Assembly: GCF_008040165.1 (NCBI RefSeq)
Contig: NZ_VRUR01000001.1
Location: 949,349-1,013,348, forward strand
Length of the DNA: 64,000 nucleotides
Reading direction: 5' to 3'
From: Flagellimonas hymeniacidonis
GTDB taxonomy: Bacteria > Bacteroidota > Bacteroidia > Flavobacteriales > Flavobacteriaceae
Shown here: one piece after another, positions 22,304-27,910 of the stretch
Numbering within the stretch: the first letter of the stretch is position 1
Layout: each line of letters opens with the position of its first letter
Translations under genes and position numbers: made by a program
The notes under the pieces: model-generated
What the model was told of the DNA's origin: nothing
What the model saw: the letters and a program-made list of their open reading frames with translations, nothing else
Databases searched by the model: none

Positions 22304-22310
22304 AGGTTTT

Positions 22311-22357
22311 CAGATATATCAGAAGTCAGTGTTCAGTTATCAGATTTCTGACATCTG
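22311..22357. repeat. Heptamer repeat arm, left of the four-helix-bundle gene
   Basis: Tandem degenerate 7-mers: CAGAAGT, CAGTGTT, CAGTTAT, CAGATTT, CTGACAT, CTGCGTT. The same units occur at 26198-26262. They lie in the short gap between the DUF2480 gene and the inserted gene and carry no coding sequence. Confidence 0.7.
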
Positions 22358-22375
22358 CGTTCCAATACCTTAAAG

Positions 22376-22738
22376 TTACTTTTTGTTTTCCAAATGTTTT
22401 ATTAAGCCGTGAATAGTTTTGGAAATTTCATCACAAACACCATAAGTCTTATCGAATATGTTTTTATTGATATAATTTACATCTAAAGCTAAATATAATT
22501 GGGATTTTACTTCATAACATGATGCTTTAGCAACATTTAAAAAGTAAATGAATTCTTTGTTCGTTTTTCTTCCATAACCTTCTGCAATGTTAGAAGAAAT
22601 TGAAATAGATGCTCTTCTTATCTGATCACGTAGTGCAAAATCTTTTGAAAAAACCTTCTCATCCGTAATCTGATATATTTCTTTGTTGAGCTCTCTAGCC
22701 TTTCTCCATGAAACTATTTGTTCAAACCCCTTATCCAT
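22376..22738 (-). CDS. Four-helix-bundle protein, 23S rRNA intervening-sequence type
   Basis: 120 residues. The core DFALRDQIRRASISISSNIAEGYGRKTNKEFIYFLNVAKASCYEVKSQLYLA is diagnostic of the S23/IVP four-helix-bundle family, first known from intervening sequences in 23S rRNA genes and also found free in bacterial genomes. It is a single cytoplasmic bundle; the biochemical role is unknown. Here it sits between the DUF59 and DUF2480 genes of the SUF operon, flanked on both sides by heptamer and CTGATATC-type repeats, so the gene with its flanks looks like an inserted cassette. Confidence 0.9.
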   Translation of the reverse strand: MDKGFEQIVSWRKARELNKEIYQITDEKVFSKDFALRDQIRRASISISSNIAEGYGRKTNKEFIYFLNVAKASCYEVKSQLYLALDVNYINKNIFDKTYGVCDEISKTIHGLIKHLENKK

Positions 22739-22750
22739 TTTATTTAATTT

Positions 22751-22780
22751 CTGATATCCGAGGTCTGATATCTTATTTTA
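22751..22780. repeat. Right arm of the four-helix-bundle element
   Basis: A CTGATATCCGAGGTCTGATATC block followed by TTATTTTA. It matches 26234-26263 (CTGAGACCCGATGTCTGAAATC then TTATTA) at roughly 80 percent by eye. The two CTGATATC half-units are direct repeats. It ends just before the stop of the DUF59 gene. Confidence 0.65.
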
Positions 22781-22781
22781 C

Positions 22782-23111
22782 TTAAAGCATTCCCAACTCC
22801 AATTTGGCTTCCTCGCTCATCAATTCTTGGGTCCAAGGAGGGTCAAAAGTAATTTCAACTTCAACATCTTTTAAGGCATCTAAGGATTTTACCTTTTCCT
22901 CCACTTCAACAGGTAATGTTTCCGCTACGGGACAATTGGGCGATGTCAATGTCATTAAAATTTTTACATCGTTATCCTCATTTACAAAAACATCATAAAT
23001 AAGGCCTAACTCATATATATCAACCGGAATTTCAGGATCATAAATGGTCTTAAGGACCTTTACGATTTTCTCTCCCAGTTCTTGTGTATCTATTACGACT
23101 TCTTCACTCAT
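22782..23111 (-). CDS. SUF-associated DUF59/MIP18 family Fe-S assembly factor
   Basis: 109 residues from the ATG at 23111. DUF59 motif: IYDPEIPVDIYELGLIYDV, then TLTSPNCPVAETLP with the conserved cysteine, and VEITFDPPWTQELMSEEAKLELGM. Members (SufT/PaaD/MIP18) help mature or carry Fe-S clusters. It starts 6 nt after the end of sufE, so it is part of the SUF operon. Confidence 0.92.
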   Translation of the reverse strand: MSEEVVIDTQELGEKIVKVLKTIYDPEIPVDIYELGLIYDVFVNEDNDVKILMTLTSPNCPVAETLPVEVEEKVKSLDALKDVEVEITFDPPWTQELMSEEAKLELGML

Positions 23112-23116
23112 TTCTC

Positions 23117-23539
23117 TCAATTTAATTGGGTTTGATAGGCGATGGCATACAATTTTAATTGCTTTACCATACTTACCAATCCGTTTGCCCTTGTTGGCGA
23201 AAGATGCTCCTTAAGACCTATTTCATCAATAAAATCTGTATTGGCATCAATAATATCTTGCGGTTTCTGATTGCTAAATGCCCTAATCAAAATGGCAATA
23301 ATTCCCTTGGTAATTATTGCATCGCTATCCGCTGTAAAGACCAATTTGTCATTATCCAATTCTGCATGAACCCACACTTTACTTTGACAGCCTTTGATGA
23401 TGTTATCATCTGTTTTGTATTGCCCATCAATCAGGGGAAGTGATTTGCCCAGTTCAATCATGTATTCATAACGTTGCATCCAATCATCAAACATGGAAAA
23501 CTCATCTACAATTTCTTCCTGAATACTTTCTATGGTCAT
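23117..23539 (-). CDS. sufE: Sulfur acceptor protein SufE
   Basis: 140 residues. SufE takes persulfide sulfur from SufS and stimulates the desulfurase. Motifs: DWMQRYEYMIELGKSLPLID and NIIKGCQSKVWV, whose cysteine is the acceptor; SDAIITKGIIAILIRAFSN follows. Lies between sufS (72 nt upstream) and the DUF59 gene. Confidence 0.95.
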   Translation of the reverse strand: MTIESIQEEIVDEFSMFDDWMQRYEYMIELGKSLPLIDGQYKTDDNIIKGCQSKVWVHAELDNDKLVFTADSDAIITKGIIAILIRAFSNQKPQDIIDANTDFIDEIGLKEHLSPTRANGLVSMVKQLKLYAIAYQTQLN

Positions 23540-23611
23540 GTGTCAGTTTTGTTCAAAAATACAATTAGGATGGTTGTTAATCAAACCTTTAAGATAAAGA
23601 TAACTTCTGTG

Positions 23612-24838
23612 TTACAGCAACATATTTCTGGCTCGTTTCACTCCTTCAACCAAAACATCCACTTCTTCTTTTGTATTATAAAAACTGAAGCTAGCTCTAA
23701 CGGTGCCTGGGATTTTATAAAAATCCATAATGGGCTGTGCGCAGTGATGACCAGTGCGGACCGCTATGCCTAATTTATCTAAAATAGTTCCGATATCATA
23801 CGGATGAATCCCATCAATATTAAAGGAAATAACTGAGGTTTTGTTTTTGGCGGTTCCATAGATTTTTAAACCATCAATCGCAAGCAGTTGTGCTGTGGCA
23901 TATTGAAGCAGTTCTTCTTCATACTGGGCAATCGCATCAAAACCAATACTGTTCATATAATCCAAAGCCGCGCCAAAAGCTATTCCGCCACAAATATTGG
24001 GAGTTCCTGCTTCAAACTTATGTGGCAAATCGGCATATGTGGTCTTTTCAAAAGTAACCTCGGCAATCATTTCTCCACCTCCTTGATAGGGCGGTAATTT
24101 ATTCAACCATTCCTCTTTACCATAAAGCATTCCTACTCCGGTTGGCCCACAAACCTTGTGCGCAGAAACGGTATAAAAATCCACATCCAAAGCTTGCATA
24201 TCTGCCTTTATATGAGGGGCAGCTTGTGCACCATCAACTAAAACCGCTGCTCCCACTTTGTGGGACGCTTCAATAATTTCTTTTATCGGGTTAACTGTTC
24301 CCAAAGCATTGGATACGTGGTTGCAAAACACCATCTTGGTTTTGTCCGAAAGTAAATCATGAAACGCCTCCATAACCAACTCCCCATTCTGGTTCATTGG
24401 TATTACTTTTAAAATAGCTCCGGTACGTTCGCAAAGCATTTGCCATGGCACTATATTGGAATGGTGTTCCATGGCCGAAACCAAAATCTCGTCGCCTTTT
24501 TTTACAAAAGATGTAAATCCGTTTGCTACCAAATTAATACTATGCGTAGTCCCTGAAGTTAAAATTACTTCATGAGTCTTAGCGATGTTATAGTGTTTCT
24601 GAATTTTAATTCGTGCGGCCTCATAAGCATCCGTGGCCTCTTGTGAAAGACTATGCACGCCACGATGAATGTTGGCATTGTAATTTTGGTAATAGTCAAC
24701 GATAACATCAATAACCTGCTGGGGTGTTTGTGATGTAGCGGCATTATCCAAATACACTAATGGCTTTCCATTGACTTTCCTATTTAGAATAGGGAAGTCT
24801 TTGCGTATGGTTTCAATATCTAAAGCTGTCTGTATCAT
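23612..24838 (-). CDS. sufS: Cysteine desulfurase SufS
   Basis: 408 residues, group II desulfurase. It removes sulfur from cysteine with PLP. The N-terminus has RKDFPILNRKVNGKPLVYLDNAATSQ; the PLP lysine is in YTVSAHKVCGPTGVGMLYG; the persulfide cysteine is in RTGHHCAQPIM near the C-terminus. It follows sufD and precedes sufE, its partner. Confidence 0.97.
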   Translation of the reverse strand: MIQTALDIETIRKDFPILNRKVNGKPLVYLDNAATSQTPQQVIDVIVDYYQNYNANIHRGVHSLSQEATDAYEAARIKIQKHYNIAKTHEVILTSGTTHSINLVANGFTSFVKKGDEILVSAMEHHSNIVPWQMLCERTGAILKVIPMNQNGELVMEAFHDLLSDKTKMVFCNHVSNALGTVNPIKEIIEASHKVGAAVLVDGAQAAPHIKADMQALDVDFYTVSAHKVCGPTGVGMLYGKEEWLNKLPPYQGGGEMIAEVTFEKTTYADLPHKFEAGTPNICGGIAFGAALDYMNSIGFDAIAQYEEELLQYATAQLLAIDGLKIYGTAKNKTSVISFNIDGIHPYDIGTILDKLGIAVRTGHHCAQPIMDFYKIPGTVRASFSFYNTKEEVDVLVEGVKRARNMLL

Positions 24839-24875
24839 TGCTCGGATTTCCCTTTAGTGGGAAAACAATATCTCA

Positions 24876-26192
24876 TTACAATTCAAATCCTACACGAACG
24901 CCAAGTTTGTTGGCAATGATCTTATTGATTCTAGTCTTAAGCTCAGGGATACGAACACTTTCCAAAACATTATTGGCAAAGGCATACATTAACAAAGCCG
25001 TTGCCTCTTTCTTGGGAATTCCTCTGGACTGCAGATAAAACAAGGCATCCTCATCCAACTGTCCAATAGTACATCCATGGGAACATTTTACATCATCTGC
25101 AAAAATTTCCAATTGTGGTTTTGTGTTGATCGTAGCCTTGTCGCTAATCAATATATTATTGTTCTGCTGAAAGGCATTGGTTTTTTGGGCTATCTTATCA
25201 ACAATGATTTTCCCATTGAAAACTCCCGTAGACTTCTCCCCAAAAATACCTTTGTAATCTTGATGGCTTTCACAATTAGGTTGCGCATGGTGTACCAATG
25301 TATGGTGATCTACATGTTGCTTTTCACCCAAAATGGTAACTCCTTTAAGCACAGAGTCCATATATTCTCCATTTTGATAGAAGTTCAAATTGTTCCGAGT
25401 AAGTTTCCCGCCAAACGAAAAGGTGTGCACGCGAACAACACTTTTATCCTTTTGAGAAATATAAGTATTATCGATCAGCGATGCTGTGTTCTCATCATTC
25501 TGCACTTTGTAGTAATCCACATTGGCATCCTTGGCTGCAAAAATTTCGGTCACGGAATTGGTAAGGACCTCATTCCCCGTCAAACTTTGGTGACGTTCTA
25601 TAATTTGAACCTCAGCATTTTCTTCAACAATTACCAAGTTTCGAGGCTGCAGCATTAAAGCAGCTTCATTACCCGTTGCCAAATGCACTATTTGAATAGG
25701 CTTCTTAGGTACTTTGTTCTTTGGAATATAGATATAGGCGCCCTCTTTGCTAAAGGCCGTATTCAAAGTAGTTAAAGACTCATCTTTAGAAGCCACTTTA
25801 TTAAAATACACATCTATGACCTGCTTGTATTGCGGTTTGGTCAATGCGGCACTCATCAAACATACATCTACACCATCATGGGTGGTTTCCGATAGATACG
25901 AGCTGTACACGCCATCAATAAATACAATCTTATAGGTATCTATTTCATGCAAGAAATACTTTTTAATGTCCTTGTATTCAAGTGTGTTTTCCTTTTTTGG
26001 GAAAATACTAAAGTCCACTTTTTGAATACCATTCAGGGACGTATATTTCCAAGCTTCTTCTTTTTTGGAAGGAAAGCCTTTTTCTTCAAAATTCTTGATG
26101 GCCTCTGAACGAACCTCGTGCACAGGGTGGTCCAAATCCACATTGTTCTCAAATGCTATGAAAGAAGAAAGTAATTTATCTTTTAAATCCAT
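24876..26192 (-). CDS. sufD: Fe-S scaffold subunit SufD
   Basis: 438 residues. SufD forms the SufBC2D scaffold. The helical N-terminus has KEEAWKYTSLNGI; the beta-helix core and C-terminus show VDHHTLVHHAQPNCESHQDYKG and DVKCSHGCTIGQLDEDALFYLQSRG, the usual SufD end. A 72-nt heptamer repeat element separates it from sufC upstream. Confidence 0.96.
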   Translation of the reverse strand: MDLKDKLLSSFIAFENNVDLDHPVHEVRSEAIKNFEEKGFPSKKEEAWKYTSLNGIQKVDFSIFPKKENTLEYKDIKKYFLHEIDTYKIVFIDGVYSSYLSETTHDGVDVCLMSAALTKPQYKQVIDVYFNKVASKDESLTTLNTAFSKEGAYIYIPKNKVPKKPIQIVHLATGNEAALMLQPRNLVIVEENAEVQIIERHQSLTGNEVLTNSVTEIFAAKDANVDYYKVQNDENTASLIDNTYISQKDKSVVRVHTFSFGGKLTRNNLNFYQNGEYMDSVLKGVTILGEKQHVDHHTLVHHAQPNCESHQDYKGIFGEKSTGVFNGKIIVDKIAQKTNAFQQNNNILISDKATINTKPQLEIFADDVKCSHGCTIGQLDEDALFYLQSRGIPKKEATALLMYAFANNVLESVRIPELKTRINKIIANKLGVRVGFEL

Positions 26193-26197
26193 TATAT

Positions 26198-26264
26198 CAG
26201 TGTTCAGTTGTCAGTGTTCAGTTGTCAGTTTCCTGAGACCCGATGTCTGAAATCTTATTATCTG
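26198..26264. repeat. Solo heptamer repeat element between sufC and sufD
   Basis: Ten consecutive 7-mers starting CAGTGTT, CAGTTGT, CAGTGTT, CAGTTGT, CAGTTTC, then CTGAGAC, CCGATGT, CTGAAAT, CTTATTA. It joins the left and right arms seen around the four-helix-bundle gene at 22311-22780 without any gene between them, so it looks like the empty or deleted form of the same element. It fills the whole sufC-sufD gap. Confidence 0.7.
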
Positions 26265-27017
26265 TTATACTACCGTTTCCTGCTTTATCCAGTCGTATCC
26301 TTTCTCTTCTAATTCCAAAGCCAGCTCTTTGGTGCCTGACTTCACAATTTTTCCATCATGTAAGACATGTACAAAGTCTGGTACAATATATTCCAGCAAT
26401 CTTTGATAGTGGGTAATCACGATAATAGCATTGTCTTTTCCCCTAAGCTTGTTCACTCCGTTTGCGACAATACGAAGTGCATCAATATCCAATCCTGAAT
26501 CTGTCTCATCCAAAATAGCCAACTTAGGTTCTAACATTGCCATCTGAAAAATCTCATTTCTTTTCTTCTCTCCTCCGGAAAATCCTTCATTAAGGGAGCG
26601 CGATAAAAACTTTCGGTCAATTTCCAACATTTCCGATTTCTCACGAATCAGTTTCAGCATTTGGTTTGCAGGCATATCCTCCAAGCCTCTTGCCTTTCTA
26701 GATGCGTTAATTGCCGTTTTCATGAAATTGGTCACAGAAACCCCAGGAATCTCAACTGGATATTGAAATGATAAGAAGATTCCTTTGTGTGCTCTTTCTT
26801 CCGGATCTAGTTCTTCTAAATCCTCACCATCCAAAGCAAGACTGCCCTTCTTTATTTCAAACTCTTCTTTTCCGGCAATCACAGATGCCAAGGTGCTCTT
26901 CCCTGAACCATTTGGCCCCATAATAGCATGAACTTCTCCTGCGTTCACCTCAAGGTTGATTCCGTTCAAGATTTTTTTATCTTCTATGCTTGCGTGTAAA
27001 TCCTTAATCTCTAGCAT
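26265..27017 (-). CDS. sufC: Fe-S assembly ATPase SufC
   Basis: 250 residues from the ATG at 27017 (MLEIKDLHASIEDKKIL). ABC-type ATPase: Walker A GPNGSGKST, Q-loop SFQYPVEIPG, signature FSGGEKKRNE, Walker B LAILDETDSGLD and H-loop ITHYQR. SufC drives conformational change of the SufB-SufD scaffold. Unusually it is separated from sufB by a metallo-beta-lactamase-fold gene. Confidence 0.97.
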   Translation of the reverse strand: MLEIKDLHASIEDKKILNGINLEVNAGEVHAIMGPNGSGKSTLASVIAGKEEFEIKKGSLALDGEDLEELDPEERAHKGIFLSFQYPVEIPGVSVTNFMKTAINASRKARGLEDMPANQMLKLIREKSEMLEIDRKFLSRSLNEGFSGGEKKRNEIFQMAMLEPKLAILDETDSGLDIDALRIVANGVNKLRGKDNAIIVITHYQRLLEYIVPDFVHVLHDGKIVKSGTKELALELEEKGYDWIKQETVV

Positions 27018-27034
27018 TCTCTTGTAATTCAATA

Positions 27035-27910
27035 TTATTTTAAAAAGTTGGGTGCCTTAGGCAGTTTTTCAAAATCTCCCTTGGCATGTTGTAAATACAC
27101 TTTTGCTCCCTTTTCTTCTGCAAAAGCTTCAAAAGCAGCCATACTAGCTTTGGTCTGGTCTACATCAAAATTAAAACTTGGTACTCTTTGATGTTCTCTG
27201 TTTTCATAAAAATGATACAAATCTCCAGATAGCAAAAGCGGTCCGTGTTCTGGCATGTCTAAATACAATACTTGATGCCCTGGTGTATGTCCTGGCATGG
27301 ATTTTATGACTACACTACCATCTCCAAAAACATCAAAATCGCCAGTAAACTTTTTGGTGTTTTGAAGTGCTTTTATGGCATTATAATTATCAGCATTGTT
27401 TTTTTGAGTCTCTTCGCTTGTAATAAAATCATACTCCGCTTGTTGCACCAGCCAAGTGGATCCAGCAAACACATTGGCATGCCCAGTGTGATCAAAATGT
27501 GTATGGGAAAGAGCAATGAAATCAATATCATCTACTTTCATTCCAATGCTTGCCAACTGATTGGCAACCGAATCTTTTCTTGATACTGTAAAAGCACCGT
27601 CAGGTGATGTAAAAGGCTCAGGTAGACCGACCAATCCTTCAGGTAGTCCAGCATCCCACATTAAGTTTCCTTTGGGATGGCTTATCACATAGAAAGCATC
27701 TGCAAATTCTTTGGATTGGCCAGTGTATGTTGTATCCTGCGAGAAGAGTTCCAACATATTAGCTCGTACATTACCCCCACTAAAGGTGTAAAGCTTAACT
27801 TCTGGTTTTACAGCTTCAACTATATTCTCTTCAGTCTTGTCAGCATCTTTTTTCGCCTGCTTACAAGAAAACGTGCCAATAATTAAAAGTGATACAAGTA
27901 TTTTTTTCAT
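27035..27910 (-). CDS. Metallo-beta-lactamase-fold lipoprotein (lactonase-like)
   Basis: 291 residues. Lipoprotein signal MKKILVSLLIIGTFSCKQ, so exported and lipid-anchored. Zinc motif SHTHFDHTGH near residues 135-144, further histidine in SMPGHTPGHQVLYL, Asp in SGDLYHF, and a final LQHAKGDF. The arrangement is that of the AHL-lactonase-like subgroup, but the substrate is unknown. It is inserted between sufB and sufC on the same strand, with 17-nt and 11-nt gaps. An exported enzyme in a cytosolic Fe-S operon suggests hitch-hiking rather than a shared pathway. Confidence 0.88.
   Translation of the reverse strand: MKKILVSLLIIGTFSCKQAKKDADKTEENIVEAVKPEVKLYTFSGGNVRANMLELFSQDTTYTGQSKEFADAFYVISHPKGNLMWDAGLPEGLVGLPEPFTSPDGAFTVSRKDSVANQLASIGMKVDDIDFIALSHTHFDHTGHANVFAGSTWLVQQAEYDFITSEETQKNNADNYNAIKALQNTKKFTGDFDVFGDGSVVIKSMPGHTPGHQVLYLDMPEHGPLLLSGDLYHFYENREHQRVPSFNFDVDQTKASMAAFEAFAEEKGAKVYLQHAKGDFEKLPKAPNFLK

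Follow-up and report, generated by a model that had tools for sequence, protein, structure and literature searches.

The intervening sequence of the Coxiella 23S ribosomal RNA (rRNA) gene is described, in the accessible part of the account, as a small unit with inverted ends and tandem GACAGAT heptamers ahead of its IVP gene, cut by RNase III at the first repeat, and the same part presents the 23S rRNA versions of IVP as suspected of mobility (PMC4990558). In the available portions of other sources, IVP frames are reported from rRNA insertions, both 16S and 23S, in bacteria of the candidate phyla (PMC11270868), the family (PF05635) is said to resemble Avd of diversity-generating retroelements (PMC10053308), and a solved Xanthomonas relative is given as a homopentamer. 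Here, two elements located outside rRNA genes are described in a 64-kb stretch of the Flagellimonas hymeniacidonis genome (hereafter the window, 64,000 nucleotides (nt)): one carries an IVP gene between short arms in the DUF59-DUF2480 gap, and the other is a gene-less hairpin in the sufC-sufD gap. It appears likely, with a probability of roughly 0.6, that both belong to a small mobile family of the intervening-sequence type that occupies operon gaps, together with derivatives comparable to miniature inverted-repeat transposable elements (MITEs).

The loaded element corresponds to the complete DUF59-DUF2480 gap (22304-22781, minus strand, 478 nt; outer ends approximate, not base-exact), which is filled entirely by the IVP gene and its two arms. 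The gene (22376-22738, minus strand) encodes a four-helix-bundle protein of 120 codons that matches the PF05635 profile at E 5e-36 and has solved relatives (2gsc, 2rld). It is preceded by an upstream arm (22748-22777, minus strand) and followed by a downstream arm (22310-22357, minus strand; aligned core 22310-22343) recognized by the lag-7 test, which scores agreement between bases seven positions apart, as an array of CTGANNN heptamers on the transcribed strand. The gene-less element, supported by lag-7 scan, fold and homology, is the whole 72-nt gap (26193-26264, minus strand) between sufC (26265-27032) and sufD (24876-26192), both on the minus strand, on which the suf cluster is transcribed. 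This hairpin of 7-nt units comprises an upstream arm (26230-26259, minus strand) and a downstream CTGANNN array (26197-26228, minus strand; TCAGNNN on the plus strand).

The initial annotation of this DNA had pointed to a run of 7-mers in the sufC-sufD block, and this block is indeed the strongest lag-7 array of the window, with a score matched by 0 of 20,000 letter shuffles; among lags 4-15, the threshold was passed only by lag 7 and by lag 14, its multiple, each at 26197, and by a single lag-9 array in another place. On the transcribed strand, the block folds into 4-bp helices with 3x3 internal loops between them (-13.4 kcal/mol, z -2.6), while the opposite strand folds at z -0.7. The lag-7 score of the downstream side of the loaded copy (22304-22357) was attained in 30 of 20,000 shuffles. 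The flanks of the IVP gene had also been proposed to match the left and right halves of the sufC-sufD block, and homology agrees: the upstream arms of the two copies align with a score of 20 over 30 nt, equalled by 0 of 204 other IVP upstream flanks, and the downstream arms with a score of 20, equalled or exceeded by 1 of 204. The two sites thus bear elements of one kind, loaded at DUF59-DUF2480 and gene-less at sufC-sufD, as had been supposed. TAACTGA occurs once in the loaded gap and not at all in the sufC-sufD gap, so that neither holds a tandem TAACTGA array. CAGT/TCAG is the core of the two window elements and not of the whole family.

The architecture of the family was examined in 205 unique rows, derived from 225 profile hits in 205 loci after removal of those near contig ends, of frames outside 95-175 codons and of duplicate genes; from these, 87 representatives were picked greedily. 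Loci came from the genus, the phylum and 80 named records (80 of 482 relatives were kept), and because they were taken from the best-scoring matches listed, with 60 further places picked by hand, weak IVP relatives are under-sampled. The 87 non-redundant loci span, among others, Acidobacteria, Fibrobacter, Proteobacteria, Nitrospirae, Elusimicrobia and candidate-phyla bacteria. Their upstream and downstream 120-nt flanks are mutually complementary, with a mean score of 16.5 vs 9.1 (sd 2.4) for mispaired flanks and a highest mean of 10.3 in 10,000 permutations of the pairing. A score of at least 16 is reached by 47 of the 87 loci vs 1.9% of mispairs, and by 0 of 89 control loci (SufD, DUF2480 and HemB genes) in the identical test. 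The 59 representatives with scores of at least 14, to which the lag and mismatch statistics refer, show 56% (left) and 54% (right) base agreement at lag 7, 52% at lag 14, 49% and 45% at lag 21, and 22-34% at the remaining lags between 2 and 20. An array scoring at least 8 is found in a flank of 58 of the 87 loci at lag 7 and of 15 at lag 8. The expectation that arrays would accompany both ends of such genes therefore holds generally for heptamers, and the same anatomy and seven-base phase recur in several phyla. In 52 of the 59 paired loci the left arm is richer in G than in C, and in 4 it is poorer. Of 85 clear loci, 63 have IVP codirectional with its two neighbours and 7 have it opposed to both, orientation being called by the longest open frame, which is crude in GC-rich genomes.

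The host genome has at least seven IVP genes and, by eye, mirrored arrays whose unit differs at almost every copy: TTAG/CTAA adjoining trpD, TCAG/CTGA at the window site, and CAAT/ATTG at other sites. Because the unit varies between elements, CAGT is not the signal; the layout that elements share is the mirrored seven-base arrangement, not the unit sequence. RNA duplex energies of fixed 100-nt flanks separated true from mispaired loci only weakly (-30.7 vs -24.6, 34 loci) and were set aside for local DNA alignment; loci L053 and L057 were excluded from the RNA duplex test because the match was not at the expected place. An AACCTC leader motif was likewise dropped as a general feature, with 12 left and 6 right occurrences among the 205 rows. 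Loaded gaps at the DUF2480 site (e.g., L353, L334, L283) contain, ahead of the IVP start, a small hairpin whose arms resemble GATATC or GTATCG, with an AACCCC/AACCTC loop and paired changes between species; this hairpin is not general in the family. Two further places in genome G000, C1:459193-459294 (L038) and C2:640264-640372 (L039), bear long arrays of pure (TCAGAGT)n immediately upstream of genes, with no adjoining IVP gene among the seven found and no evident mirrored partner.

Movement is documented in Nostocales plasmids. Sites lacking the element, from which the initial annotation hoped to define its ends, exist there with 97.5-98% flank identity: site A is loaded in two Trichormus variabilis plasmids and one Scytonema plasmid and empty, between the same genes, in six others. 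The two empty records read lack 428 bp of the loaded record, and the sequence at the upstream gene's stop codon, single when empty, flanks both sides of the 428 bases when loaded, which gives the gene-bearing form a target duplication of TAAT, or GTAAT at most (4-5 bp). The two ends of the inserted unit are formed by heptamers of the CAGAATT/CAGGAGT type and their mirror image. Another related plasmid, the fourth, carries a decayed copy at site A, and one from Brasilonema has a hairpin of this unit type that lacks the gene. Plasmids of Aulosira and Nostoc have related elements, including the arms, elsewhere, at 78-82% identity. Further plasmids contain gene-less copies of about 180-205 bp, in which a non-coding core is still enclosed by the two arms; one of these copies has a matching empty site at 95% identity. 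Arms and gene thus move as a unit, and arms have also moved without the gene. The suggestion that the repeats are a mobility signal therefore survives in part: the arrays are the ends of the element, kept by moved gene-less copies, but there is no general CAGTxxx, each element having its own unit. Ends shared with a gene-bearing element, as in MITEs, are found in the Nostocales and in the window, and occurrence at several sites, some known empty, in the Nostocales only.

In the 12 plasmid loci read (of 30 plasmid records), flank complementarity averages 17.8 vs 10.2 for mispairs. At site C, the flanks match at 99.4% around unrelated gaps. At nrdB-nrdA of Nostoc edaphicum, the element is antisense, and its arms retain their polarity relative to IVP, G-rich upstream. 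A phage search with one IVP protein (L001) gave no match. Among other plasmid contexts, IVP lies inside an operon of clustered regularly interspaced short palindromic repeats (CRISPR), between cas6 and cas4, in L377 and L379, and between cas10 and a cmr3-type gene in L381, while the related plasmid L396 has no IVP between cas10 and cmr3. In L377, from Pseudanabaena, IVP is also flanked on either side by very long heptamer arrays of the (GCTAAAA)n type, in the same orientation and unmirrored.

Comparison of the two window junctions across the genus adds a record of turnover. The DUF59-DUF2480 junction, readable in 69 of 71 species, holds IVP in 20 (with a broken frame in three: G003, G046, G068), a gene-less TTAG/TGAG heptamer hairpin in 13, a gap of at most 30 nt in 5, another palindromic repeat in 16 and other sequence in 15, including hairpins of a GGGTTAA-like unit in G035 and G058. 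The short gap of G013 resembles, by eye, a deletion between two GATATC copies found in loaded relatives. At sufC-sufD, read in 30 species, 16 have a related gene-less hairpin (two diverged), 9 a gap of 7-16 nt, 4 another palindrome, and one (G047) an IVP gene (E 1e-30) with unrelated arms. At the hemB site, several species retain remnants of the right arm only. Remnants, hairpins and differing units indicate that the gene is sometimes lost and that one junction can be struck by different elements. The sufC-sufD copy need not have arrived as an empty mobile unit, as gene loss from loaded copies also occurs in the genus (hemB and DUF2480 sites); on the favoured account it would descend, without the gene, from the TCAG-type element now at the DUF2480 site or from one closely related to it. 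Where present at the window site, the gene is maintained by purifying selection, as indicated by a ratio of nonsynonymous to synonymous substitution rates of 0.04-0.12 in the 12 closest species pairs.

Gene-less TCAG..CTGA hairpins are numerous in the genus, with 145 matches (overlapping registers counted) vs 1 for the reversed pattern. Of 11 genomes with at most two IVP genes, 2 have such hairpins, and of 35 with seven or more, 24 do. The number of hairpins and the number of IVP genes per genome are weakly correlated (rho 0.26, p 0.027). Arms expand visibly in G045 and G052. Co-evolution of the arms within a junction is clear, between distant species, at fadB-fadA (15 species) and at the junction after it (11 species), each with p 0.00005. 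It is less marked at nuoD (p 0.016-0.044), falls short of significance at rluA (0.055-0.061) and at lolC (0.07), and is absent at hemB, trpD, metF and lpdA (p 0.38-0.97); it was set aside as evidence because independent insertion accounts for the pattern equally well. The other palindromic repeat, GTCATTCC...GGAATGACA, is the one seen at both junctions (16 of 69 and 4 of 30 species; L254-L269; e.g., L276, L281-L297). A small frame beginning MTTRQIDRIIEMAWEDR lies in the DUF59-DUF2480 gap of several species (L285, L289, L294-L296, L298) and shares it with IVP in some (L290, L295).

A question raised by such paired ends is whether pairing matters in RNA or in DNA. One account holds that the arms pair in the operon transcript and are cut by RNase III, so that the IVP segment is removed from the message, and that the complementarity is maintained by selection for this reason. 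The RNase III cut described for Coxiella, the prevailing codirectionality of IVP with its neighbours and the better fold of the gene-less hairpin on its transcribed strand would suit it, as would an alignment of the sufC-sufD hairpin from 14 species, in which predicted pairs contain 18 G-U vs 5 A-C cells, in a structure chosen with G-U allowed. Pairing at the RNA level should, however, produce an excess of G-U over A-C mismatches, and none is found across the 59 paired loci (88 vs 91; isolated ones, 35 vs 30), where sense and antisense duplexes are also equally stable (p 0.93); neither test thus reveals an RNA-specific signature family-wide. The gene-less alignment at the DUF2480 site has 3 G-U, 2 A-C and no pair changed on both sides, and arrays at some loci are direct. 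(Alignment A2 omits L341, leaving 13 of 14; A3 omits the diverged hairpins L247 and L248, leaving 14 of 16.) RNA-level selection was accordingly not adopted as the leading account; it is retained as a rather unlikely one, and the lack of a family-wide G-U excess favours the view that the paired ends act in movement as DNA. That the hairpin instead regulates its operon, by translation or attenuation, with IVP as an RNA-binding regulator and spread as a secondary matter, is quite improbable. The arms do lie immediately ahead of the following gene's start codon, IVP shows conservation at some sites and is under purifying selection, and translational regulation by TAACTGA repeats has been proposed by MacGregor (accessible part of PMC4679880); yet the same junctions in relatives have no array, another unit or another palindrome, and the same kind of element adjoins unrelated genes and is once antisense to its neighbours (nrdB-nrdA).

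Movement itself could be brought about by an ordinary transposase encoded elsewhere in the cell, which would recognize the arms and move the unit in trans with IVP as cargo. This is improbable to a degree between the two foregoing accounts: gene-less copies move with arms alone and the unit encodes no known recombinase, but unit sequences differ so widely that a sequence-specific transposase would not read them, and mirrored arrays accompany one and the same gene family across several phyla. The heptamer arrays might, finally, be microsatellites grown by slippage and unconnected with a gene that merely tolerates the same gaps. Slippage is suggested for bacterial heptamers in the available part of PMC4692102, arms do expand (G045, G052), and a slippage origin is possible for the long one-sided arrays that have no adjoining IVP (C1:459193, C2:640264). 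As an account of the family it is nevertheless very improbable, given that mirrored arrays lie on either side of one gene family and none around control genes, and that at site A the arms and gene of a loaded element were inserted together into an empty site.

Altogether, these findings are best accommodated by the mobile intervening-sequence-type family proposed above. Each element is bounded at both ends by short runs of 7-nt units whose mirrored order allows the ends to pair, and the full form carries a single gene, IVP, between them, usually in the direction of the host operon. The IVP protein may handle the paired ends and help their movement, the enzyme for which would be supplied by the host. 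The seven-base phase may let the arms pair in several registers, in which case slippage of an arm would leave the match intact. Intergenic gaps, like rRNA helix tips, could be places where the unit does little harm, and the G-rich upstream arm may reflect its position in the leader of the IVP gene.

Several observations weigh against this proposal. The unit encodes no catalytic enzyme, and the part of IVP in movement is one that we infer. In the window, the short upstream arm (22739-22781) is not by itself periodic beyond chance (5,815 of 20,000 shuffles), and the arms of the loaded copy are only moderately complementary, with a score of 13, below the cut of 14 (mispaired mean 9.1). Among the 87 loci, 6 have only direct, not inverted, arrays at the cut and 22 reach neither the inverted nor the direct cut, while 4 of the 12 plasmid loci score 10 or less. 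The rise of arm likeness with protein likeness, which holds between sites (mean percentile 0.70; Mantel rho 0.075, p 0.048), speaks for the proposal, but genome composition may inflate this link. Most copies are old: in a tree of 205 IVP proteins with 11 labelled sites, 5 sites form single clades and 2 nearly so (7 of the 11), and 4, including fadB-fadA, do not. No recent insertion is seen in the genus of the window, and no pair of copies at different sites among the 205 rows exceeds 74.8% identity over at least 200 nt. In the plasmids, target duplication is clear at one site only, the L399/L400 comparison permits at most 2 bp, and loaded and empty gaps at sites B, D, E and F differ beyond clean insertion.

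A broader proposal can be put forward tentatively, at somewhat less than even odds: the elements would form a mobile class spanning several phyla, recognized at their ends by layout, namely the seven-base phase and mirror complementarity, and not by sequence, with each IVP acting on its own ends; the heptamers scattered in bacteria (TAACTGA, GGGAATC, cyanobacterial short tandem heptamers) would largely be ends or remnants of such elements, and rRNA intervening sequences would be members that landed in ribosomal genes. IVP genes are present in at least 157 of 198 sampled genomes of the phylum, and the literature compared gives no function for IVP. The gene now gains an element with a defined architecture, natural empty sites and gene-less derivatives, which makes mobility and the role of IVP testable in culturable cyanobacteria. 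Outside these elements, a 291-aa gene at 27035-27910 (minus strand), between sufB and sufC, contains an HTHFDHTGH motif that we take to be of the metallo-beta-lactamase type.

Set against known systems, the elements resemble 23S rRNA intervening sequences in having an IVP gene between inverted ends and heptamers before the gene, as partly described for Coxiella. The S23/IVP protein is present (E 5e-36) and inverted, stem-forming ends are found family-wide, moderately so in the loaded window copy (score 13); in contrast, the window elements lie in protein-gene gaps (DUF59-DUF2480 and sufC-sufD) and the family also occurs on plasmids. It adds gene-less derivatives and natural empty sites, and is not known to undergo excision from RNA. 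Not being located in rRNA, the element is not classed as an rRNA intervening sequence, although it works like a mobile one. The TAACTGA repeats of Beggiatoaceae, cyanobacteria and Bacteroidetes share the 7-nt gap units, the frequent position just before a start codon and the TCAG/CTGA core, but are presented, in the accessible part of the source, as direct repeats with neither mirrored partner nor IVP gene (PMC4679880). The GGGAATC and GGGGA(C/T)T heptamers of Xanthomonas and Nostoc are alike in gap location, G-richness of one strand and excess over other unit sizes, whereas the available portion of their description reads them as quadruplexes or slippage products and ties no gene family to them (PMC4692102). 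Bacterial MITEs likewise exist as gene-less copies, in several places, with the ends of a gene-bearing element; here, however, the gene-bearing form has IVP only and no transposase, and its ends are heptamer arrays that differ between families. Diversity-generating retroelements share the likeness of IVP to Avd, while the present unit lacks a reverse transcriptase; none was found among five neighbouring products scanned, no dedicated search of the genomes having been made. The accessible portions of the open-licence full texts searched contain no link between heptamer ends and free-standing IVP genes. The anatomical match to the Coxiella element, as partly described, is the strongest link to a known kind, and what is new here is the tie of heptamer ends to free-standing IVP genes, with empty sites and gene-less derivatives. 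This offers one origin for heptamer repeats that, in the parts available of the separate papers on them, lack a settled explanation (PMC4679880, PMC4692102), and the element may thus explain a class of unexplained seven-letter repeats.

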